NCBI RefSeq assembly: GCF_003073375.1
Contig: NZ_CP029002.1
Location: 3,508,001-3,572,000, forward strand
Length of the DNA: 64,000 nucleotides
Origin: Lysinibacillus sp. 2017
GTDB taxonomy: Bacteria; Bacillota; Bacilli; Bacillales_A; Planococcaceae
Direction: 5' to 3'
The notes below the pieces were generated by a model, which made no database searches, was not told the origin of the DNA, and worked only from the letters and a program-made list of their open reading frames with translations. Positions 1,360 to 49,796 of the stretch are shown here, piece by piece (position 1 is the first letter of the stretch; every line of letters begins with the position of its first letter). Position numbers and translations under genes: made by a program.

Positions 1360-2302
1360 ATGCTTTCCCCCTAAATAACATAATTAAGAAGATGGCACTG
1401 CCGATTACCGCAACTGTTGTATTTACTGGAATTTCAAATGGATAAACAATCAGACGACTTAAAATATCACACATTAATAGGAAAGCTGCTCCTAAAAAAA
1501 TCGTATGTGGAATCGTCTTGCGTAAATTGTCTCCTAAATATAACGAAACTAAGTTTGGGACGATTAATCCTAAGAACGGAATAACCCCGACTGTTAATAC
1601 AACGGTTGTTGAAATAAGCGCGACAAGTACTAAGCCAAGATTTAAAACCGTACGATAACTTAATCCTAAGTTCTTAGCGAAATCTTCACCCATCCCTGCA
1701 ACTGTAAACTTATTTGCATATAAATAAGCGAGGAAAATAGCAGGTACCGCAACGTAAAGTAATTCATAGCGTCCTGATACAACTAAGGTAAAGCTTCCTA
1801 AAAAGAAGGTCTCTACACTTTGCATTACATCCGCTTCATAAGCGATAAATGTTGAAATTGCACCAATAATATTTCCGTACATAATCCCAATAAGCGGTAC
1901 GAAGATAACATCTTTAAATTTAATACTTTCAAGTAGGCGCATGAAGACCATCATACCAATAAGAGCAAAAACAAAACTAAAGATGATTTTCCCCATATAA
2001 GATATATTTGTAAAGAATACCATTGATACGATAATACCTAGCTTTGCGGCATCAAGTGTACCCGATGTTGTCGGCGATACGAACTTGTTACGACTTAAGC
2101 TTTGCATAATTAAACCAGAAATACCCATCCCTGCCCCAGCAAGTATGATCGCTATTAATCGCGGCACTCGACTCATTAAGAAAATTTGTGTTTTATCTGA
2201 ATCCCAGTCTAATAAATCAGACGGCTTAATGTCGATTGCACCGATAAATAGTGATATAAAGGACAATACGATGGTTGCTACAACGAGCATCCAAAGTCTC
2301 AT
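1346..2302 (-). CDS. yclN: Siderophore ABC transporter permease YclN
   Basis: First gene of the operon and second FecCD-family permease, 318 residues with about nine membrane segments. Family motifs include SRVPRLIAIILAGAGMGISG near the N-terminus and GVIPFLGLIVPNLV in the C-terminal half. The loop GEDFAKNLGLSY is the usual ATPase coupling region. Together with YclO and YclP it forms an iron-siderophore importer. A Fur box lies about 50 bp upstream of the start, so expression should rise when iron is scarce. The petrobactin substrate is inferred from the B. subtilis YclNOPQ system. Confidence 0.9.
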   Translation of the reverse strand: MRLWMLVVATIVLSFISLFIGAIDIKPSDLLDWDSDKTQIFLMSRVPRLIAIILAGAGMGISGLIMQSLSRNKFVSPTTSGTLDAAKLGIIVSMVFFTNISYMGKIIFSFVFALIGMMVFMRLLESIKFKDVIFVPLIGIMYGNIIGAISTFIAYEADVMQSVETFFLGSFTLVVSGRYELLYVAVPAIFLAYLYANKFTVAGMGEDFAKNLGLSYRTVLNLGLVLVALISTTVVLTVGVIPFLGLIVPNLVSLYLGDNLRKTIPHTIFLGAAFLLMCDILSRLIVYPFEIPVNTTVAVIGSAIFLIMLFRGKAYAKK

Positions 2303-2348
2303 TTCATTTTCCCACTATTCTTTATATATTTTTTATTCTCAATGAAAA

Positions 2349-2363
2349 TGAGAATCATTCTTT
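2349..2363. promoter_or_regulatory. Fur box upstream of yclN
   Basis: The 15-mer TGAGAATCATTCTTT has a perfect AGAAT-C-ATTCT core and fits the Bacillus 7-1-7 Fur site (TGATAAT-N-ATTATCA). It sits about 47 bp upstream of the yclN start, the expected place for iron repression of the operon. A second, overlapping weaker half (TGAAAATG) begins five bases earlier. Confidence 0.8.
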
Positions 2364-2506
2364 CATTTCATTATTATATAATCGGTAATAATGAAAATCA
2401 AACACCTATTAAAAATACATACATATTGGTACAAAATTCTGACGAAATAATGTATTTTCTGAAGTATTTCTTATTTATAATTTTATCTGTTATGAAATCA
2501 CATATA

Positions 2507-2541
2507 AAAAAGTACAAATCAGTTTTTGATTTGTACTTTTT
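2507..2541 (-). terminator. Intrinsic terminator after the racemase gene
   Basis: AAAAAGTACAAATC and GATTTGTACTTTTT form a long stem around a 7-nt loop immediately after the stop of the minus-strand racemase gene. The symmetrical A/T tails mean it could also work for plus-strand transcripts, but no plus-strand gene ends here. Confidence 0.85.
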
Positions 2542-2543
2542 TA

Positions 2544-3653
2544 TTATAAGCGATACGTTTTTTGTTGAACGCTATATTTTTCTAATGCTTTACGATTCAC
2601 TTCGTAGCCTAAGCCGACTTTTTTAGGAACGTTAATATAGCCATCTTCGACCGTTACTTCTGGTGTAATTAAATCCTCATACCAATAACGCTCCGATGCA
2701 GCTGTATCTCCTGGCATTGTGAAATTTGCTAAGCTTGTCAGGGCCACATTTTGTGCACGACCAATACCGGCTTCTAACATACCACCACACCAAACTGCAA
2801 TATTATGCTCAGCACAATAATCATGAATACGCTTTGCTTCACTAATGCCACCAACACGGGCAATTTTGATATTGATAACACCGCAACTCCCAAGCTGAAT
2901 TGCTTTACGTGTGTCGTCTAATGATGTAATACTTTCATCCAAGCAAATGGGCGTTTGAATCGCTTTTTGCAGCGCCGCATGATCAATTAAATCATCATGT
3001 GCTAACGGTTGCTCGATCATCATTAAATTGAATTCATCTAGCTTTTTTAAAAGCTCCAAATCATGCAATGTGTAGGACGAATTGGCATCCGCCATTAATG
3101 GGACATACGGAAATGCCTTGCGAATGGTGCGTAACAATTCAATATCTTTCCCAGGCTTAATTTTTACTTTTATCCGCTTATAGCCTTGATCTAAAAAGCT
3201 TTGAATTGTGTGAATAAGCTGTTCATCAGTTGGCTGTAAACCGATACTAATCCCCACTTCGATTTTAGACCGTGTGCCACCAATGGCTTTCGCTAAGGAT
3301 TGGTTCGTATGTTGTGCAAAAATACCCCATACCGCGCCTTCAATTGCTGCTTTTGCCATATTATTTCGGCGAATCGGTCGAAACAGCTCGTACACTTCAT
3401 CTGGATGCTTTATTTCATGACCAAGTAATTTAGGAATCAAAAAATCTTCCAACATATGAAGAGTCGTTTTTAACGTTTCCTCTGTATAAGAAGGATCTTC
3501 AAAAGCAACGCCTTCTCCCCAACCAACTACACCTGTTTCATCCTTTGCTTCGATCACTAAAAAGCGTTTAGTTTGCATCGAGCCTAAACTCGTTGTAAAC
3601 GGCGTTTTCATCCGCATCTCCACTTGATGAATTATAACTTCTACTAATTTCAT
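2544..3653 (-). CDS. menC: Enolase-superfamily N-acylamino acid racemase / o-succinylbenzoate synthase (MenC2 type)
   Basis: Muconate-lactonising subgroup of the enolase superfamily, about 369 residues. Catalytic landmarks are present: the KxK lysine pair (RIKVKIKPG, near residue 163), metal ligands in DANSSYT, MIEQPL and CLDES, and the second general-base lysine in [10 protein letters not shown]. Enzymes of this clade either make o-succinylbenzoate for menaquinone or racemise N-succinyl amino acids; many do both. No other men gene is near. The partner is a COG3375-type GNAT 70 bp upstream, which favours the racemase role (see findings). The start chosen is ATG at 3653; a TTG at 3662 lies only 3 nt from AGGAG, and the ATG 12 nt from it, so the start is not certain. 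Confidence 0.85.
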
Positions 3654-3723
3654 TTGATTCAACTGCTCCTAATTTATCCCGCAATAACGGGCAGTATCTG
3701 TAGCGAAAGCAAAGCGACTCGCT

Positions 3724-4557
3724 TTAAAGTGCAAATAAAGAGCGTTTTACTAGTACATACTGACAAATCTGCTCATTTTCTTTCGATAAATGGATGATCT
3801 TATAGCCTTGTTCGAACATCGATTGCAATATATGACGCGTTTTATAGCGCCAATCTTCTGCTAGTGCAGGATTTTCGACTTTGATTTTTTGGAAATTTGT
3901 CGGAATAGGTAATGTATACGCATCGTTTAGCAATGCCTCATCACCTTGAAACCTTTTTTCTTCATCTAACATCGGCAACCCTACAGTATTTAATGACCAC
4001 TTTACAACAGGCTTTGCTTCCTCGATTAACTCTTCTACTTTGGAATCCCATCGCAAATAATCGTTATCAACTAATTGCCACTCTACATATAGGCGATCGG
4101 TCGGTAAAGCACGATTAAATGGATCTTCCATTTCACCATAACAATTTGGAATATACGTATCACTGTAGCCGCGTAGCTTTGAAAAATTCAAAAACCCACT
4201 GCGTGCTTCTAGAGGATCAAATGTCCAACGACAATTACGGAATCCTCGTTCACTTGCAATATCTTTTAAGTAAATTTTCATAAGCTCCCCAACACCTTGC
4301 TCACGATAATTACGCTTAATACCTAACATATGTGAATATAAATATACTTTCTCGTCTTTAAAACCAGGGCAACTATAATTGAAGCCAATTAGTTCATCGT
4401 TCAAATAGGCCCCTAGTACGATTCCGCCATTACGAATAGTTCCAATCGTTTGATGAACTGGAATACTCCCTACTGCCCAAATATCAAGTTCTAGTTTTCT
4501 CGCCTCTTCTAATTGCTCAATCGTCGTTAATTCCTTTACCGTCACTAATTCTAACAT
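3724..4557 (-). CDS. COG3375-type GNAT acyltransferase, probable D-amino acid N-succinyltransferase
   Basis: A 277-residue GNAT-fold protein. Acyl-CoA binding loop residues are seen in RNYREQGVGELM (about residue 85), and the following RNCRWTFDPLEARSGFLNFS block is typical of the COG3375 'predicted acetyltransferase' family. It is probably co-transcribed with the downstream N-acylamino acid racemase. In Geobacillus kaustophilus a protein of this type succinylates D-amino acids so that the racemase can convert them to the L form; transfer of that role is inference. The start at 4557 has AGGGGATGG 8-10 nt upstream. A longer frame from GTG at 4602 lacks such a site. Confidence 0.75.
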   Translation of the reverse strand: MLELVTVKELTTIEQLEEARKLELDIWAVGSIPVHQTIGTIRNGGIVLGAYLNDELIGFNYSCPGFKDEKVYLYSHMLGIKRNYREQGVGELMKIYLKDIASERGFRNCRWTFDPLEARSGFLNFSKLRGYSDTYIPNCYGEMEDPFNRALPTDRLYVEWQLVDNDYLRWDSKVEELIEEAKPVVKWSLNTVGLPMLDEEKRFQGDEALLNDAYTLPIPTNFQKIKVENPALAEDWRYKTRHILQSMFEQGYKIIHLSKENEQICQYVLVKRSLFAL

Positions 4558-4620
4558 AATTTTGCCATCCCCTATCGTTACTTTTTGTAATGCTAAGTTC
4601 ACTACTTTTGTTAAAACATA

Positions 4621-4760
4621 TTCATCTGTGATAAGTCATTCTATAAGGGATAACTTATTCAGACGATGTAACCCTGGGAATAGTCCGCATCCTCAAACTA
4701 TGGGTGCTTTAATAAAAAGGACGTTTCGCCATATTAAGAAAGACTATTTAATTCCATTAT
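4621..4760 (-). other. Structured-looking gene-free stretch upstream of the GNAT/racemase pair
   Basis: The 305-bp gap between the peptide transporter and the GNAT gene holds several nested inverted repeats on the minus strand: ATAGT/ACTAT around 4670-4700, GATAAGT/ACTTATT around 4640-4670, and GTCC/GGAC pairings with CCC/GGG flanks. No known riboswitch consensus (T-box, SAM, TPP, lysine, glycine, guanidine, c-di-GMP) was recognised. It may be a leader RNA of the downstream operon, but nothing confirms it. Confidence 0.3.
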
Positions 4761-4821
4761 ATACCACTCGGAACATTTCAAGTAGTTAACTTTTATTATT
4801 CCTTTCTAGAAAAATAAAAAA

Positions 4822-4855
4822 CCCCCTATTTATAGAAATTTCTATAAATAGGGGG
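4822..4855 (-). terminator. Intrinsic terminator after dtpT
   Basis: A perfect 34-nt palindrome starting CCCCCTATTTATAGAAA, followed on the minus strand by a run of T. It lies 8 nt after the dtpT stop codon. Confidence 0.93.
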
Positions 4856-4862
4856 AAATAAC

Positions 4863-6347
4863 TTATTTAATGCCGCGCATTGCTTTTGAAATGATTGGTG
4901 AAATTAATAAAATAATCACACCTAAGACAATTGAAAAGCCGCCTAGCACACCGAAATACATAGTTTCAGAAACATGTTCATAAACACGAACTAATTGTGC
5001 GTTGATTGCTTGTGCTGCTGCAGAAGCTAAGAACCATAACGCCATTGTTTGACCAGCGAATGCTGCTGGTGCCAATTTTGTAGTAGCAGATAAACCAACT
5101 GGTGAAAGTAATAATTCACCGACAACTACTAAGAAGATCGAGAAAACAACCCATAATGGATTTACTAACGTATCTTCTGGAGTCAATACAATCGCAGCAA
5201 TCATAATGATGAAGGAAATCCCTGAGAAGAATAATGCCATTGCAAATTTCTTCGGAGTAGATGGTCCACGATCGCCCAACTTCGTCCAAAGAACCGCGAA
5301 TAACGGTGCCATTGCAATGATGAATAATGGGTTAAATGATTGGAACCATGCTGCTGGAATATCAAAACTACCTAATGTTAAGTTTGTACGTGTATCGATA
5401 AATGTTGCAAGAATTGTTGAAGATTGCTCAGCAATAGCCCAGAACATTACGGCACAAATAAATAACGGAATATATGCTAATAAACGAGATTTTTCATCTG
5501 CATTTGTTTTTGGACTACGATACATAAACGCAATAAATACTGTAGGAATTAAAATACCTAGTGCTGTAATTAATAGTGAGAAGTTTTCAACGTTTGCATT
5601 ACCTGTCATATAAGCAATGACTCCTAAAATAACAACGATTAAACCACCCACAGTAAAGTTACGTACTGCTTTTTTCTTTTCAACAGCATTCATTGGATTT
5701 GTAGGTACTGAACCTGCTAAACCAAGATTTTTTTGTGATTTCCAGAATACTAGTAAACCAAGGAACATACCTACTGCTGCAACTGAGAAGCCTGCATGGA
5801 AGCCCCAGTTTTTTTGGAATAGACCAACAAGTAAAGGTGCGATGAAACTACCCATGTTGATACCCATATAGAAAATAGAGAACCCTGAATCACGACGAGG
5901 GTCACTTTCTGCGTATAAATCCCCGACAACTGATGATACGTTTGGTTTAAGTAAACCTGTACCAATAATGATGAAGAACATCGAAGCATAAAGTGCTGAT
6001 ACGCCTAATGGAAGTGCCAATAAAATATGACCCACCATAATTAAAATACCACCGTAGAACACGGCTTTTCTTGTACCAGTAATTCGGTCAGAAATCCAAC
6101 CACCAATAATACCCGACATGTAAATTAACGATCCGTAAATTGACATGATAATGTTTGCTTGTGTACGATCTAAACCTAACCCACCATCTTTAAGTGCATA
6201 GTACATATAGAAGATGAGGATGGCACGCATACCATAATATGAAAATCGTTCCCAAAACTCTGTAAAGAATAAAGTAAATAGCCCTTTAGGTTGTCCTACA
6301 AAGCCTGTCTGGGGAACAGATTTCACGATTTCCTCTTTAGAATACAT
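4863..6347 (-). CDS. dtpT: Di-/tripeptide:proton symporter, POT family
   Basis: A 494-residue membrane protein of the proton-dependent oligopeptide transporter family within the major facilitator superfamily. It imports di- and tripeptides with protons. The POT signature FFTEFWERFSYYGMRAIL is near residue 30 and the second signature GINMGSFIAPLL near residue 145; about 14 hydrophobic segments follow. It resembles B. subtilis YclF. The ATG at 6347 has GGAGG eight bases upstream; the 15-nt longer frame would begin at TTG without spacing for a ribosome site. It is a single-gene unit with its own terminator. Confidence 0.92.
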   Translation of the reverse strand: MYSKEEIVKSVPQTGFVGQPKGLFTLFFTEFWERFSYYGMRAILIFYMYYALKDGGLGLDRTQANIIMSIYGSLIYMSGIIGGWISDRITGTRKAVFYGGILIMVGHILLALPLGVSALYASMFFIIIGTGLLKPNVSSVVGDLYAESDPRRDSGFSIFYMGINMGSFIAPLLVGLFQKNWGFHAGFSVAAVGMFLGLLVFWKSQKNLGLAGSVPTNPMNAVEKKKAVRNFTVGGLIVVILGVIAYMTGNANVENFSLLITALGILIPTVFIAFMYRSPKTNADEKSRLLAYIPLFICAVMFWAIAEQSSTILATFIDTRTNLTLGSFDIPAAWFQSFNPLFIIAMAPLFAVLWTKLGDRGPSTPKKFAMALFFSGISFIIMIAAIVLTPEDTLVNPLWVVFSIFLVVVGELLLSPVGLSATTKLAPAAFAGQTMALWFLASAAAQAINAQLVRVYEHVSETMYFGVLGGFSIVLGVIILLISPIISKAMRGIK

Positions 6348-39775: not shown

Positions 39776-40648
39776 TTGAATCCCACATCTTATTCAATCC
39801 AACAAGTCGCTGAAATTACAGGACTGTCCAAACAGGTGATACGAAAATGGGAAGATCGCTATCAAATTATCCAGCCTCGAAGATTAGACAATGGTTATCG
39901 AATGTATAGCGAAGATGAAGTACAAACCTTAATAGGACTTACTTCCCTTACGAATAGCGGTATGACAATTAAACAAGCGATTGAACATTATTCGAAACTA
40001 AAAAATTCGCTTGAAGTAAACCCGGTTATCCATTCTAGAAACGCCCTCATTCAGGCTGGGACAGAGGGAAATGAACAAGAAATTCTGCATTTGCTTGAGC
40101 AAGCACTTCATAAATTCGGTGTCGAGAAGCTAATTGAAGAAATTATCATTCCTTTTTTACACGAAGTCGGGCAACTTTGGTGTGAAAACGCTTGGGGGGA
40201 ATATCAAGAAGCAATTAGCAGCCAAACCGTTCGTGACTTTTTAAGTCATATTCGTCGACACTTTTTCGTGCCTGAAGATGCACCACTTGTATTAGGAAGC
40301 TGTCTACCTGGAGAAAGACATGAAATTCCGATGCAAATTTTACTTATCCAATGTATGCTGCGCGGCTATCAGACATCGATGCTCGGTCCATCACCCGCGC
40401 CAACAGCTATCCAGTCAACTATTGCATTGAAAAAGCCAATAATTGTCTTACTGACAGGTTCAACGGATATAGCGTTCACAGAGCACGCACAATCGATTTT
40501 CACCCTCGAAAAATTGGCACAAGCGCATCGGGACATTTCCTTTTTCATCGGTGGTGCTGGTTCGGAAAAATATTATAAACAATTTCAATTGAATGCCTTG
40601 AAACTATCGCAATCCATTCATGATATTTTTCCAAAAGAAAACTTTTAA
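39776..40648 (+). CDS. MerR-type regulator with cobalamin-binding domain (CarH/LitR-like)
   Basis: A 290-residue regulator starting at TTG, supported by AGGAGGTG seven bases upstream. Order: MerR winged helix (about 6-75, VIRKWEDRYQIIQPRRLDNGYRMY), a four-helix cobalamin-cap domain (about 85-165) and a Rossmann B12 domain (about 168-285). The lower axial-ligand motif GERHEIP puts the histidine at residue 182, and the conserved FIGGAG follows near 258. In the cap, W135 and E145 of the W-x9-E-H motif of light-sensing CarH are kept, but the histidines next to them are C136 and A146. It probably binds adenosylcobalamin and controls the divergent MMPL exporter. Confidence 0.85.
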   Translation: MNPTSYSIQQVAEITGLSKQVIRKWEDRYQIIQPRRLDNGYRMYSEDEVQTLIGLTSLTNSGMTIKQAIEHYSKLKNSLEVNPVIHSRNALIQAGTEGNEQEILHLLEQALHKFGVEKLIEEIIIPFLHEVGQLWCENAWGEYQEAISSQTVRDFLSHIRRHFFVPEDAPLVLGSCLPGERHEIPMQILLIQCMLRGYQTSMLGPSPAPTAIQSTIALKKPIIVLLTGSTDIAFTEHAQSIFTLEKLAQAHRDISFFIGGAGSEKYYKQFQLNALKLSQSIHDIFPKENF

Positions 40649-41130: not shown

Positions 41131-41293
41131 AAAAAAACCTCCTAAATCATTCTATTAATACGTATTCCCCAAAAAATAAAAAAATACACTTTTAATAGAT
41201 TAAACTTAAATCCACTGCTACTATTTCGCCAAAATATTATTTTTTTTATTTTGCTTTATGTTATAGTAATAGCAACTACATATCGTGTAAAAA

Positions 41294-41460
41294 TTGGTGC
41301 TTATGAAAATAAGCTTAAAAGGGAAGTACGTTGAAAATGCGTCGCTGTCCCGCAACTGTAATTCGAAAGTTCCTTACAAATACCACTGTTTTAATACGGG
41401 AAGGTGTAAGGCGCGTTTGATCGATAAGCCAGGAGACCTGCCAATTTCAGTACACACCAA
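41294..41460 (+). promoter_or_regulatory. Cobalamin riboswitch 1
   Basis: The B12-box and conserved core are clear: AAAAGGGAA, then GTCGCTGTCCCGCAACTGTA, and later AAGCCAGGAGACCTGCC. TTGGTG (41294-41299) and CACCAA (41455-41460) close the outer stem. An adjoining hairpin CCTA-CGTGGAAA-TAGG (41464-41479) has a GTGG loop complementary to CCAC in the distal arm (41383-41386), the usual kissing-loop arrangement, and it sequesters the AGGTGG ribosome site that follows. The RNA leads only to a short ORF and a terminator. Confidence 0.95.
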
Positions 41461-41484
41461 GTGCCTACGTGGAAATAGGTGGTG

Positions 41485-41541
41485 ATGACAGAAGTACGAC
41501 AAACGACATTCAATGAGCATGATTTTTGTGCACTTTTTTGA
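41485..41541 (+). CDS. Tiny ORF controlled by cobalamin riboswitch 1 (18 aa)
   Basis: An ORF reading MTEVRQTTFNEHDFCALF, whose AGGTGG ribosome site lies inside the riboswitch expression hairpin. It is followed 20 bp later by an intrinsic terminator, so it is the only coding capacity of this transcript. It could be a remnant of a lost target gene, a leader, or a functional microprotein; sequence alone cannot decide. Confidence 0.35.
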   Translation: MTEVRQTTFNEHDFCALF

Positions 41542-41560
41542 TTTGATTTTCGCGTATTGA

Positions 41561-41593
41561 AAGCCACTTCCATTGTAGAAGATGGCTTTTTTT
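41561..41593 (+). terminator. Terminator ending riboswitch-1 transcript
   Basis: AAGCCACTTC pairs with GAAGATGGCTT (with one bulge/mismatch), followed by TTTTTTTG. Confidence 0.85.
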
Positions 41594-41614
41594 GTTGTTT
41601 AAAACTAGTGCTTG

Positions 41615-41686
41615 TAAGATAGCTATTTGCTTTAACTCTCCCCTATGAGGTTTTCAGGTAGCTATCTTAGAATCACTATGATTCTA
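41615..41686. repeat. Inverted repeats between the two cobalamin riboswitches
   Basis: TAAGATAGCTA (41615-41625) and TAGCTATCTTA (41659-41669) are perfect inverses, and TAGAATCA (41668-41675) and TGATTCTA (41679-41686) form a second perfect hairpin directly after it, touching riboswitch 2. They do not belong to the cobalamin aptamer core. They may be an upstream RNA structure or protein-binding sites. Confidence 0.45.
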
Positions 41687-41692
41687 GCGGAA

Positions 41693-41860
41693 AAGGTTCA
41701 AGCTTAAACGTTTGATGAAAAGGGAAGAACGGTGTGAATCCGTCGCTGTCCCGCAACTGTAACTCGAAAGTCCCTCACAAATACCACTATTACCGAAAAT
41801 AGTAGGGTGTGGTGCGTTTAATCGATAAGCCAGGAGACCTGCCTTTTCAAGTACAAACCG
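41693..41860 (+). promoter_or_regulatory. Cobalamin riboswitch 2
   Basis: A second complete aptamer: AAAAGGGAAGAACGGTGTGAA, then CGTCGCTGTCCCGCAACTGTA, CAAATACCACTATT and ATCGATAAGCCAGGAGACC. It shares long identical runs with riboswitch 1 (for example CGTCGCTGTCCCGCAACTGT and AAGCCAGGAGACCTGCC), so the two arose by duplication or share recent ancestry. The following hairpin CCTA-CGAGGA-TAGG (41866-41879) contains the AGGAGG ribosome site of the next ORF, which suggests translational control. Confidence 0.95.
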
Positions 41861-41890
41861 TTATACCTACGAGGATAGGAGGTGCAGAGT

Positions 41891-41995
41891 ATGAACACTA
41901 ACCATACTCATTGTGCGAAACCGAAACGAAAGGATTTTCTTTACTACAGAAAATACCCTTCCATTTGGTTTCAATGTCATGTATTTAATGAATAG
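41891..41995 (+). CDS. Small ORF controlled by cobalamin riboswitch 2 (34 aa)
   Basis: A 34-codon ORF starting MNTNHTHCAKPKRKDFLYYR and ending FQCHVFNE. AGGAGGTG, part of the riboswitch hairpin, lies eight bases before its ATG, so this is the direct target of riboswitch 2. It is basic and aromatic, with H5, H7, C8 and a C-terminal CH pair that could bind metal, though that is only a possibility. It ends exactly one base before the frame of the next ORF, giving translational coupling. Confidence 0.5.
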   Translation: MNTNHTHCAKPKRKDFLYYRKYPSIWFQCHVFNE

Positions 41996-42019
41996 TTGAA
42001 ATCAAAAGGAGCAATGATA

Positions 42020-42199
42020 ATGAATACAAATTACGAAGCCTTATTAAAAGAACAAGTAATGCAGCAAATTTTAGGAAATGATTCTCGAAACTTACAATCT
42101 GCCGCCCAATTTTTAATCACACAACATAAAGAAGACCAACATCAAATTATGAAAGCTTATCAAAAAGTGAATACTGAAATCTTTGGCGATCTCGTTTAA
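42020..42199 (+). CDS. Small helical protein downstream of riboswitch 2 (59 aa)
   Basis: A 59-residue protein starting MNTNYEALLKEQVMQQILGN, rich in Gln, Lys and Glu, with no membrane segment or cysteine; it should be mostly helical. AAAAGGAG lies eight bases before the ATG at 42020 (an in-frame ATG at 42014 is too close). It is the last gene before the terminator, so the transcript of riboswitch 2 carries just this and the 34-aa ORF. No homologue was recognised. A link to cobalamin is implied only by its control element. Confidence 0.65.
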   Translation: MNTNYEALLKEQVMQQILGNDSRNLQSAAQFLITQHKEDQHQIMKAYQKVNTEIFGDLV

Positions 42200-42210
42200 A
42201 AACATATAAA

Positions 42211-42241
42211 AATCCGTTGTACAAATTGCGTACAACGGATT
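42211..42241 (+). terminator. Terminator ending riboswitch-2 transcript
   Basis: AATCCGTTGTAC pairs perfectly with GTACAACGGATT around a 7-nt loop, followed by CTTTTAG. Confidence 0.85.
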
Positions 42242-42293
42242 CTTTTAGCTCACAATAATGGACAATAAGACGTCCAAAGATTGAAGGTTCCTT

Positions 42294-46818: not shown

Positions 46819-47044
46819 CTTTATTCCTCCTTTTCAATGAACTATTATCTTATATTTTATTATAATTACCCTCATTTTTACTAATTTATCCGTTCCATGT
46901 TCCTACCTTCAAATTAGTTTCATCATGAACTTTAATAATAACATCTTAAAAAAAATTTTTTCTGAAAATTTAAATATAGTTATTGACAATAGAATTACTT
47001 GGATTTAAGATTAAGAACATATCAAACGCAACTGAATATATTTT

Positions 47045-47141
47045 CTTATCAAGAGAGATGGAGGGACAGGCCCTTTGAAGTCTCGGCAACAGCTATTTTA
47101 GCATTGTGCCAAATCCTGCAAGTGTAAACTTGGAAGATAAG
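47045..47141 (+). promoter_or_regulatory. SAM-I riboswitch (S-box)
   Basis: CTTATCAAGAGAGATGGAGG opens the aptamer, GGACAGGCCC and GGCAACA follow, and GGAAGATAAG closes it by pairing with the first bases. This is the standard S-box order. It shuts the downstream methionine-transport operon when S-adenosylmethionine is plentiful. The terminator comes 24 bp later. Confidence 0.97.
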
Positions 47142-47164
47142 ATCAAAAGTGATGAAGTCTATTC

Positions 47165-47250: not shown

Positions 47251-48276
47251 ATGATCGAATTTTCAAATATATCAAAGACATTCAAAATGAAAGACCGTGA
47301 AGTGCACGCTGTTAAAAATGTAAATTTAACGGTACATAAAGGAGATATTTTTGGCATTATCGGTTTTAGTGGCGCAGGAAAAAGTACGTTACTGCGATTA
47401 GTTAATTCTCTAGAACAGCCAACAACCGGCTCCATTACCGTTAACGGTACGGACTTAGCGAAAATTTCTCAAAAAGAGCTTCGTCAATTGCGACGAAACA
47501 TCGGAATGATTTTCCAGAACTTTAACTTAATGACCTCGCGTACTGTAGCAGGAAATATCGCTTATCCATTAAAACTTGCAGGCAAATCCAAAAGTGAGAT
47601 TGAGCGAAGAACTGCAGAATTATTAAAGTTTGTTGGGTTATCTGAAAAAGCAAAGGATTACCCAGAACAATTATCAGGCGGACAAAAGCAGCGAGTCGGA
47701 ATCGCTCGTGCACTTGCTACAAACCCTGATATTTTAATTTGCGATGAAGCAACTTCCGCGCTAGATCCTGAAACAACAGCGGATATATTGAGATTATTAA
47801 AACGCGTGAATGAAGAACTCGGGATTACTGTCTTACTAATTACACATGAAATGCATGTCATCCAAACGATTTGTAATCGTGTTGCTGTTATGGAAAATGG
47901 ACAGGTCATTGAAAGTGGCAATGTCTACGACGTTTTCACCCAACCACAACATCCGACAACACAACGCTTTATCCAATCTGTACATCAAGATATGCCATCC
48001 GAACACATTTTAAAAGAATGGAAGCAATCTGGTGGACAACATTTATACCGAATATTATTTAAAGGCTCATTAACTCATAACCCATTACTTTCTGAAATTA
48101 CACAAAAACATCAAGTACCGTTCAATATCATTTACGGATCGGTACGAGAATTGCAAAATAAAATGTTTGGCAATCTTCTCGTTTCATTTAAAGGTAATGA
48201 TGCACAAGTGAACTATGTAATAGAAGAACTTTCACAAATTGTAGAAGTAGAGGAGGTTTTATTAAATGAAGGTTGA
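47251..48276 (+). CDS. metN: Methionine ABC transporter ATPase MetN
   Basis: A 341-residue ATPase: Walker A GFSGAGKST (near residue 38), signature LSGGQKQR, Walker B ILICDEATSALD, followed by the C-terminal NIL (ACT-like) domain from about residue 260 that senses methionine. It drives uptake of methionine (and possibly its D-isomer or oxidised form). The first gene after the SAM riboswitch; its ribosome site (AGTAGG) is weak. It overlaps metI by 11 nt. Confidence 0.95.
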   Translation: MIEFSNISKTFKMKDREVHAVKNVNLTVHKGDIFGIIGFSGAGKSTLLRLVNSLEQPTTGSITVNGTDLAKISQKELRQLRRNIGMIFQNFNLMTSRTVAGNIAYPLKLAGKSKSEIERRTAELLKFVGLSEKAKDYPEQLSGGQKQRVGIARALATNPDILICDEATSALDPETTADILRLLKRVNEELGITVLLITHEMHVIQTICNRVAVMENGQVIESGNVYDVFTQPQHPTTQRFIQSVHQDMPSEHILKEWKQSGGQHLYRILFKGSLTHNPLLSEITQKHQVPFNIIYGSVRELQNKMFGNLLVSFKGNDAQVNYVIEELSQIVEVEEVLLNEG

Positions 48277-48928
48277 TTGGAATACATTTTGGCCGAGGAT
48301 TGCAGAAGCAACAGGTGAAACACTTTTTATGGTCATTTTAACGCTTCTTTTCGGTTCAATTCTTGGTATAACGCTAGGTTTACTTTTATTTGTTACAAGA
48401 GAAAACAATATTCTTGAAAGCAAAATTACATTTAACTTACTAAATATCTTAATTAATATTATTCGACCTGTTCCATTTATTATTTTCTTAGTGGCTATAT
48501 CCCCTCTCACACGCTTAGTAATGGGGACCACAATTGGAACATCCGCAGCCGTCTTTCCAATGACCATTGCTTCTGCATTTGGGATTGCACGAATTGTGGA
48601 AACAAATCTTATTGGTATTGACCCCGGTGTTATAGAGGCAGCAAAAGCAATGGGAGCCAGCCCGTTTCAAATTATTTTTACGGTGTTAATCCCTGAAGCA
48701 CTTGGACCTCTAATTTTAGGTTTAACATTCGTCACAATTAGTTTAATCGACTTTTCAGCAGTAGCAGGAACAGTTGGTGGAGGTGGTTTAGGTCATATCG
48801 CAATCACTTACGGTTACCAACGATTCGATACAAGTGTCATGATCGTCACCGTCATTATATTAATTATTCTTGTACAACTTGCACAATGGTTAGGCAACGC
48901 ATTAGCAAAAAAAATATTAAGACGATAG
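48266..48928 (+). CDS. metI: Methionine ABC transporter permease MetI
   Basis: A 220-residue permease (called MetP in B. subtilis) with five membrane segments and the EAA loop VIEAAKAMGASPFQIIFTVL near residue 125, which docks onto MetN. AGAGGAGG precedes its ATG, and it overlaps metN by 11 nt. Part of the riboswitch-controlled operon. Confidence 0.95.
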   Translation: MKVDWNTFWPRIAEATGETLFMVILTLLFGSILGITLGLLLFVTRENNILESKITFNLLNILINIIRPVPFIIFLVAISPLTRLVMGTTIGTSAAVFPMTIASAFGIARIVETNLIGIDPGVIEAAKAMGASPFQIIFTVLIPEALGPLILGLTFVTISLIDFSAVAGTVGGGGLGHIAITYGYQRFDTSVMIVTVIILIILVQLAQWLGNALAKKILRR

Positions 48929-48941
48929 GAGCAAATCATTC

Positions 48942-49796
48942 ATGAAAAAATTATTATTTTTAGTATTCACAGCATTAGCAATATTTACCTTAGCAGCCTG
49001 CGGAGATGAGGAAAGCAGCGTAGTAAAAATTGGTGTCAACGGTGCAGATGGTGCACAATGGCCAATCTTAAAAGAAAAATTGGCTAAAGAAGGCATCGAA
49101 ATTGAATTAGTTGAATTTGAAGACTACATCTTACCAAACAACGCATTAGCACATGGCGATGTTGATTTAAATGCATTCCAACACATTTCATTTTTAGCTA
49201 GCTATACAAATGAAAGTGGCAACGATTTAATTCCATTAGGCTCTACCGTGTTTGCACCACTTGGGTTATATTCAAAAAAAATTACAGATATCAATGAAAT
49301 TAAAGAAGGCGACAAAATTGCCATTCCTGACGATGCATCAAACCAAGCACGTGCATTACGTTTATTAGAATCAGCAGGATTTATAGAACTAGCAGACGAC
49401 TTCGGATTATTTGGGGATCCAACAAAAATTACAGCAAACAAATTAAACTTAGACATCATTCCAATGACAGCTCAACAAACACCACACGTATTACCAGATG
49501 TAACGGCCGCTATCATTAATAACGGGATTGCTGGTCAAGCTGGTCTTAACCCAGGGGAAGATCCAATTTACCGTGAGTTAAGTGAGGATGAAAGTGTCTT
49601 CCCATATGTCAACATTATTGCTGCACGTGCAGAAGATAAAGACAATGAAGTATATCAGAAAATTATTGAAGCCTACCATACAGAAGAAATTGAAAAAGCC
49701 ATCAAAGAAGATACAAAAGGTGGCCAAGTTATAACGATTTTATCAAATGATGAATTACAAACTACATTCAAAGAGTTAAAAGAGATTTCTAAATAA
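48942..49796 (+). CDS. metQ: Methionine-binding lipoprotein MetQ
   Basis: A 284-residue NlpA-family substrate-binding lipoprotein. Lipobox TLAACGDE with C20; the mature part has VNGADGAQWPILKEK and GDVDLNAFQHISFL, typical of MetQ. It captures methionine outside the membrane for MetNI. TAGGAGC precedes the ATG, 13 bp after metI. Confidence 0.95.
   Translation: MKKLLFLVFTALAIFTLAACGDEESSVVKIGVNGADGAQWPILKEKLAKEGIEIELVEFEDYILPNNALAHGDVDLNAFQHISFLASYTNESGNDLIPLGSTVFAPLGLYSKKITDINEIKEGDKIAIPDDASNQARALRLLESAGFIELADDFGLFGDPTKITANKLNLDIIPMTAQQTPHVLPDVTAAIINNGIAGQAGLNPGEDPIYRELSEDESVFPYVNIIAARAEDKDNEVYQKIIEAYHTEEIEKAIKEDTKGGQVITILSNDELQTTFKELKEISK

Follow-up and report, generated by a model that had tools for sequence, protein, structure and literature searches.

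What do two cobalamin (B12) riboswitches control when nothing but tiny ORFs lies behind them? The question is posed by Lysinibacillus sp. 2017, in a 64,000-nt stretch of its genome (contig NZ_CP029002.1, positions 3,508,001–3,572,000; hereafter the window, whose own numbering is used below). A first, sequence-only reading had proposed two complete B12 aptamers on its plus strand, each followed by a CCTA...TAGG hairpin and then only by very small ORFs and terminators, and had suggested either that the tiny proteins are B12-regulated products or that one unit makes a regulatory RNA. The answer that we favour, and hold to be probable though well short of certain, is that tandem B12 OFF-switches drive a mini-protein of B12 scarcity through a leader-ORF relay, as one B12-repressed unit rather than two units with tiny products.

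The tandem riboswitch locus

A covariance search (Rfam cmscan, with the RF00174 gathering threshold of 31.5 bits) bore out both aptamers on the plus strand, at 41278–41459 (121.7 bits, E 5e-30) and at 41677–41860 (107.4 bits, E 6e-26). Both score above the threshold and span the whole model (positions 1–189 of 189), with a spacing of 217 nt, and the first starts at 41278 rather than at 41294, as had been read. The CCTA...TAGG hairpins are likewise present behind the aptamers, CCTACGTGGAAATAGG at 41464–41479 and CCTACGAGGATAGG at 41866–41879, and what follows is, as described, tiny plus-strand ORFs only (18 aa, 41486–41542; 34 aa, 41891–41995; 59 aa, 42020–42199) before the convergent ahpF. Both of the hairpins proposed as terminators are there too; a simple terminator scan lists only the terminator-like one at 42211–42241 (on both strands), between the unit and ahpF, and that at 41560–41593 was seen by folding (−12.8 kcal/mol, z −4.0). 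Since ahpF is convergent and lies behind the 42211–42241 hairpin, the unit would not be expected to read through and express it. With two full aptamers, each having its own expression platform (as assigned by folding and comparison only), the arrangement fits a same-ligand tandem. A promoter scan found no plus-strand promoter-like site for riboswitch 2, nor for riboswitch 1; the two may share a single transcript.

The genome (3.74 Mb, one contig) holds five RF00174 matches, the window pair being two of these, and the other three precede nrdH/nrdI-like genes, a gene for a BtuF-like transporter protein and an unidentified gene (all named by eye, with no family search).

The 59-aa protein family and its riboswitches

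Searched with the single 59-aa sequence, 21 of 200 genomes from the window's taxonomic family contained relatives, and a profile built from 17 relatives placed what we call the 60-aa family in 81 of 261 related genomes, to which an order-wide search over the same 261 added nothing; in a class-wide draw 7 of 398 genomes matched, all within the window's own family. The ORF is under purifying selection, with pN/pS values of 0.32, 0.09 and 0.10 for 12 unique 60-aa, 6 unique 58-aa and 6 unique 55-aa members respectively (sets confined to sequences beginning MNP with one of these lengths, from genus set g14, inferred to be Lysinibacillus), and of 0.33 between the window and L038, the closest relative found. 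Judged by this conservation, the 59-aa ORF is a real gene. G092, the nearest relative genome found (loci L007/L038), has no start codon for the 18-aa ORF at the corresponding place, and neither do L008, L009 and L011; this ORF was judged no gene and rejected as a product for lack of conservation.

No curated Pfam or NCBIfam family was matched above its cut-off by the 17 members (best E 0.0031 and 0.007 respectively, each for at most two members), and the 60-aa profile matched no PDB sequence at E < 0.001 (best E 0.14). An AlphaFold2 model of the 59-aa protein, made from three aligned sequences, has three helices (mean pLDDT 80, pTM 0.60), and a fold search with this model returned nothing significant (one PDB match at E 8.8, and 28 viral models with a best E of 0.69). 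Titles and abstract openings in the open-access collection searched yielded no paper on the 60-aa family, or on a leader-ORF relay at B12 riboswitches outside Mycobacterium. The family thus appears to be undescribed.

In all, 115 copies were located (of 122 matches, two were left aside together with the five weakest, which included the first half of a duplicated protein), and these were divided by a sequence motif, CQAYE, picked after the table had been seen, into 45 type A and 70 type B copies. A riboswitch motif lies upstream, on the same strand and within about 4.5 kb, of 64 of the 70 type B copies versus 0 of the 45 type A copies, with less than 4.4 kb of upstream sequence for four copies of either type and less than 400 nt for two type A copies. 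The motif search recovered the Rfam matches in all eight loci checked. An Rfam scan of its six misses adds L087 (RF01482, 53.3 bits) and L077 (33 bits, degenerate), bringing the type B count to 66 of 70; by motif and Rfam alike, no riboswitch was found for L095, L098, L107 and L169. Given 1–12 riboswitches per genome in the genomes listed, well under one upstream riboswitch would be expected by chance. The idea of tiny B12-regulated products therefore survives for the 59-aa protein, conserved and riboswitch-linked; it finds no support for the unconserved 18-aa ORF or, given the leader-like character described below, for the 34-aa ORF.

The riboswitch is less than 480 nt from the 60-aa ORF in 51 copies, and in the remaining 13 metE intervenes between riboswitch and 60-aa gene, ending about 16–268 nt before the latter. 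Among the 51 direct copies, 10 have a platform like that of window riboswitch 1 (RS1-type) and 41 one like that of riboswitch 2 (RS2-type). Outside the tandem either type serves alone, and the tandem itself is rare, being found in the window and G092 only (2 of 70 type-B copies).

The neighbourhood of the family offers some further observations. Upstream of the window riboswitches and on the same strand is a gene for a MerR-type regulator with a B12-binding domain (CarH-like, Pfam B12-binding_2; 39776–40648), in which the His of GERHE could, by analogy with CarH, be the cobalamin ligand. Such a CarH-like gene stands beside the 60-aa gene in the window and G092 only, among 70 type-B contexts, and in both the next gene after the 60-aa gene is the convergent ahpF. 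In 18 loci of one genus set (G063, G074, G093, G109, G115, G133, G139, G145, G155, G160 and eight more) the 60-aa gene is followed, after 155–1371 nt and in the same orientation, by a gene for a PepSY-like membrane protein (named by eye); absences carry little weight here, 1.5 kb downstream having been covered for most loci. At L037, a cobalamin riboswitch (1405–1584) directly precedes a pyruvate carboxylase-like gene (1753–5199; named by eye), whose homologue at L090 ends 485 nt upstream of a riboswitch-linked 60-aa gene. L133 and L137 encode proteins of 117–118 aa that resemble a tandem duplicate of the 60-aa domain, and further upstream they have metE and a second riboswitch. The window genome has a second family copy, of type A (L073, G000:C1:1291148-1291324, motif CQAYEVVKH), near which no riboswitch was found.

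Expression platforms and the 34-aa leader ORF

RS1-type platforms, those of the 10 direct copies and of window riboswitch 1, have no leader ORF and end in an intrinsic terminator, located 114–125 nt past the B12 box in nine of the ten loci, 187 nt past it in the tenth and 131 nt past it in the window. In relatives an element of this kind stands in front of the 60-aa gene or metE, which makes the expression platform of riboswitch 1 the best reading of the 41560–41593 hairpin. The hairpin directly behind the aptamer is customarily named P13 in these riboswitches, and in the window copy it could instead, through its loop and 3' strand, form an antiterminator with the terminator's 5' arm (duplex −10.5 kcal/mol). 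Over 51 unique platforms with RS1 and RS2 types pooled (55 usable of 74), this pairing averaged −7.2 kcal/mol within platforms versus −6.6 kcal/mol across them, a small mean gain, and 10 of 2000 permutations were not beaten by the own pairs, the script having picked some hairpins other than the likely terminators, for example that of L007. The P13/terminator pairing of the RS1 type fits the usual transcriptional OFF-switch. Switching in this direction, riboswitch 1 would form its P13 hairpin in the presence of B12, leaving the terminator to stop RNA polymerase, and in the absence of B12 the P13 strand would pair with the 5' arm of the terminator and transcription would go on.

Between the riboswitches, at 41615–41669, lies another hairpin (z −3.5), conserved in five loci: its stem sequence varies and its loop, CTCTCCCCTAT, is identical in the window, L007, L008, L009 and L011. 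An identical loop on differing stems is what speaks for an alternative in which riboswitch 1 makes a B12-dependent regulatory RNA, as with AspocR and Rli55 of Listeria, with this hairpin as its possible working part; its C-rich loop might pair with ribosome sites. The hairpin is, however, behind the terminator, so it would be made on read-through only, and the sole other genome match to its 18-base loop pattern has two mismatches. Elsewhere, moreover, the RS1 type directly precedes metE or, in 10 other loci, the 60-aa gene. We found no positive evidence for the regulatory RNA that one unit had been suggested to make, and regard it as barely credible. A Listeria-type sRNA in the narrower sense, with a noncoding output and no conserved gene downstream, was rejected, as a conserved coding gene lies downstream.

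In the RS2-type platforms (41 of 51), the ribosome site, AGGAGG or GGGGG, emerges from the P13 stem, and a second hairpin, GAGTRTG...CATRCTC, contains the start codon. In the window the P13-like hairpin CCTACGAGGATAGG runs into the AGGAGG of the 34-aa ORF (41866–41882 together), and GAGTATG...CATACTC, with the start codon of that ORF, occupies 41887–41909. Across 23 aligned sequences the pairs of this platform are kept in 98.3% of cells, as against at most 56.8% when slid, and those of the start-codon hairpin in 98.8%; its helices, start-codon hairpin included, show no two-sided covariation in these 23 sequences, shuffles doing as well, and the start-codon helix is a plausible one. Riboswitch 2 would be, on the same transcript, a second OFF-switch that in the presence of B12 makes the 34-codon leader's ribosome site and start codon inaccessible.

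A leader start and an open frame of 33–41 codons are found in 39 of the 41 RS2-type loci. At L086 and L163 the leader frame is fused in frame to the 60-aa domain, giving one 84-aa protein, which argues that the leader start is used there. L087 has the same leader start region behind its RF01482 riboswitch, and a scan of the 10 RS1-type loci found no SD-led ORF of more than 24 codons at the leader position. For 19 unique sequences, out of 22 leaders with 40 codons beginning VTR in set g14 (the other 17 unfused leaders being excluded), pN/pS is 0.84 over the whole leader and 0.94 for codons 18–40, and synonymous divergence is low (0.13 versus 0.28–0.49 in the length groups of the 60-aa family); together these values imply that the bases are constrained and the peptide hardly so. 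Shuffled leaders remain open in 92–355 of 2000 cases each (11 representatives, partly non-independent). Conservation of the small ORFs downstream of the riboswitches, which the sequence-only reading had named as support, is thus found for the 59-aa ORF and is absent for the 18-aa one, and the 34-aa ORF keeps its start, frame and length with hardly any constraint on its amino acids (in one genus set). On this pattern the 34-aa ORF resembles a regulatory leader rather than an independent product.

A plainer alternative would have the B12 riboswitches repress the small protein and the 34-aa ORF encode a second, separately working peptide that binds, for example, metal or cobalamin through its His and Cys residues. 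His/Cys-rich ends had indeed been remarked on, an HTHC/HAHS start is common to many loci, and the window and L038 leaders (34 aligned codons) both keep TNHTHCAKP and WFQC, with an excess of differences at the third codon position (7/8/16 at positions 1/2/3); some constraint on the peptide is possible in the window/L038 lineage. Yet the N-terminal motif falls in a predicted RNA helix, the codons for the shared HTHC/HAHS residues being predicted to base-pair with the region of the start codon, and the C-terminal half of the leader varies between genera. The pN/pS values given above for the inferred Lysinibacillus leaders also tell against a working peptide, as do the 10 RS1-type loci that have the 60-aa gene and no leader, and we consider it decidedly improbable.

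A U run occurs between the leader stop and the 60-aa start in 35 of the 39 unfused loci (it is absent in the window, L038, L039 and L040), the two being 24–64 nt apart in all 39, and the stem preceding that run mostly starts a few bases or less from the leader stop (37 unique leaders folded, of the 39 unfused). In the window a coupling hairpin (41959–42011; −18.1 kcal/mol, z −2.8), with a similar one in L038, takes its 5' arm from the final codons of the leader, and its 3' end partly covers the ribosome site in front of the 59-aa ORF. Either kind of hairpin, that with the U run or that hiding the SD, could give a ribosome translating the leader a means of turning on the gene behind it. In the relay that we favour, absence of B12 would lead to translation of the leader, and the ribosome at the leader stop would block formation of the next hairpin, which would be an intrinsic terminator in most leader-bearing relatives and, in the window, the hairpin over the 59-aa ribosome site. 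The 59-aa protein, modelled as three helices, would be the output, synthesized under B12 scarcity. In several of the folded leaders the final codons make a separate hairpin that includes the stop codon, so that a ribosome at that place could have more than one effect.

Eight loci (L100, L102, L106, L108, L112, L119, L131 and L134) have an extra hairpin with a T run inside the leader ORF, about 109–113 nt past the B12 box and so near the RS1 terminator distance. The leader might also be accidental, with riboswitch 2 acting directly on transcription via terminators, or via the 60-aa ribosome site, and leader translation playing no role. RS1-type platforms appear to work in this way without a leader, and U-run hairpins such as those just described, within the leader ORF of several inferred Lysinibacillus loci, would suit it. 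That a ribosome site, a start codon and an open frame recur in 39 of 41 loci argues against an accident, as do the U-run hairpins after the stop in 35 of 39 loci and the fusion of the frame to the 60-aa domain in two genomes; we deem an accidental leader unlikely, if by no means negligible.

Methionine synthesis and comparison with known systems

Cobalamin riboswitches normally control B12-related genes, as the sequence-only reading had pointed out, and this tie holds for the 60-aa gene, which follows metE in 13 copies and whose type-B genomes all have metH (65 of 65, versus 205 of 261 genomes overall). Type B was found in 0 of 13 genomes with full-length metE and no MetH, and in 0 of 43 with neither; these counts, like those for metH, ignore shared ancestry. 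Full-length MetE is present in 42 of the 65 type-B genomes. As the other 23 lack it, among them the window genome, in which metH is present and no metE match was found, a role for the 60-aa protein as a MetE subunit or obligate partner is unlikely. From these distributions we infer a link of the protein to MetH. Going further, the family could be a dedicated effector of B12 scarcity on methionine synthesis, binding or restraining MetH, for example, while MetE or imported methionine takes over, and the riboswitch would reach it via an intrinsic-terminator attenuator worked by the ribosome finishing the leader ORF. We put this forward tentatively, as a possibility that we would not call likely; if true, it would be a metabolite-sensing form of leader-peptide attenuation, in which translation of the leader is governed by a riboswitch instead of by codon supply. 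Within the window, 5 kb from the tandem, a SAM riboswitch (47043–47143) precedes methionine transporter-like genes (47251–49796; named by eye), which, with metH and no metE in the genome, fits methionine economy.

On these data, a protein family so far unnamed would join the B12 regulon of Lysinibacillus and related bacteria, and the tie to metH genomes is a testable lead on the cellular rationing of B12. A disposable ORF before a terminator suggests how a riboswitch that hides a ribosome site could control transcription, in many genomes. Leaders and mini-proteins this small are easily overlooked in annotation, so 'orphan' riboswitches elsewhere may have such outputs.

The nearest mechanism is that of M. 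tuberculosis ppe2, a B12 OFF-switch with a short uORF whose translation is needed for PPE2 expression (PMC11260477). There, ppe2 depends mainly on termination-reinitiation at a tight stop/start overlap, and intrinsic terminators are described as rare in that group (PMC11260477). The two are alike in logic, each having a short upstream ORF behind a B12 switch. Hiding of the upstream ORF's ribosome site by the riboswitch, a mark of the ppe2 type, may occur here: in the 23 aligned loci the SD is part of the P13 stem or adjoins it, and a predicted hairpin encloses the start codon, with no covariation seen. Stop/start overlap, however, is absent in 39 of 39 unfused loci, and the present system differs in belonging to Bacillota, in having 24–64 nt between the ORFs with separate ribosome sites and a different output gene, and in placing a U-run or SD-hiding hairpin beside the leader stop. 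The M-box of M. tuberculosis directly controls a conserved small ORF, rv1805A, which has a homologue outside riboswitch control (PMC12810186); a small ORF with a riboswitch-free homologue resembles type B together with type A here, whereas the M-box is a Mg2+ sensor working through Rho-dependent termination, with another protein as output.

Tandem SAM-I/AdoCbl riboswitches on metE and same-ligand tandem AdoCbl switches are also on record (PMC9481103, PMC9600662). On the reading favoured here, they share with the window OFF-switches in series on one transcript and a metE/metH link, and differ from it in that the output here is a 59-aa protein and not metE, and in that the two platforms here appear to be unlike each other, a terminator followed by control of leader translation. 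Listeria AspocR and Rli55 are B12-riboswitch-controlled RNAs that act as antisense or protein-sequestering RNAs (PMC8079631). The output is unusual in both cases, and the conserved output here is a protein.
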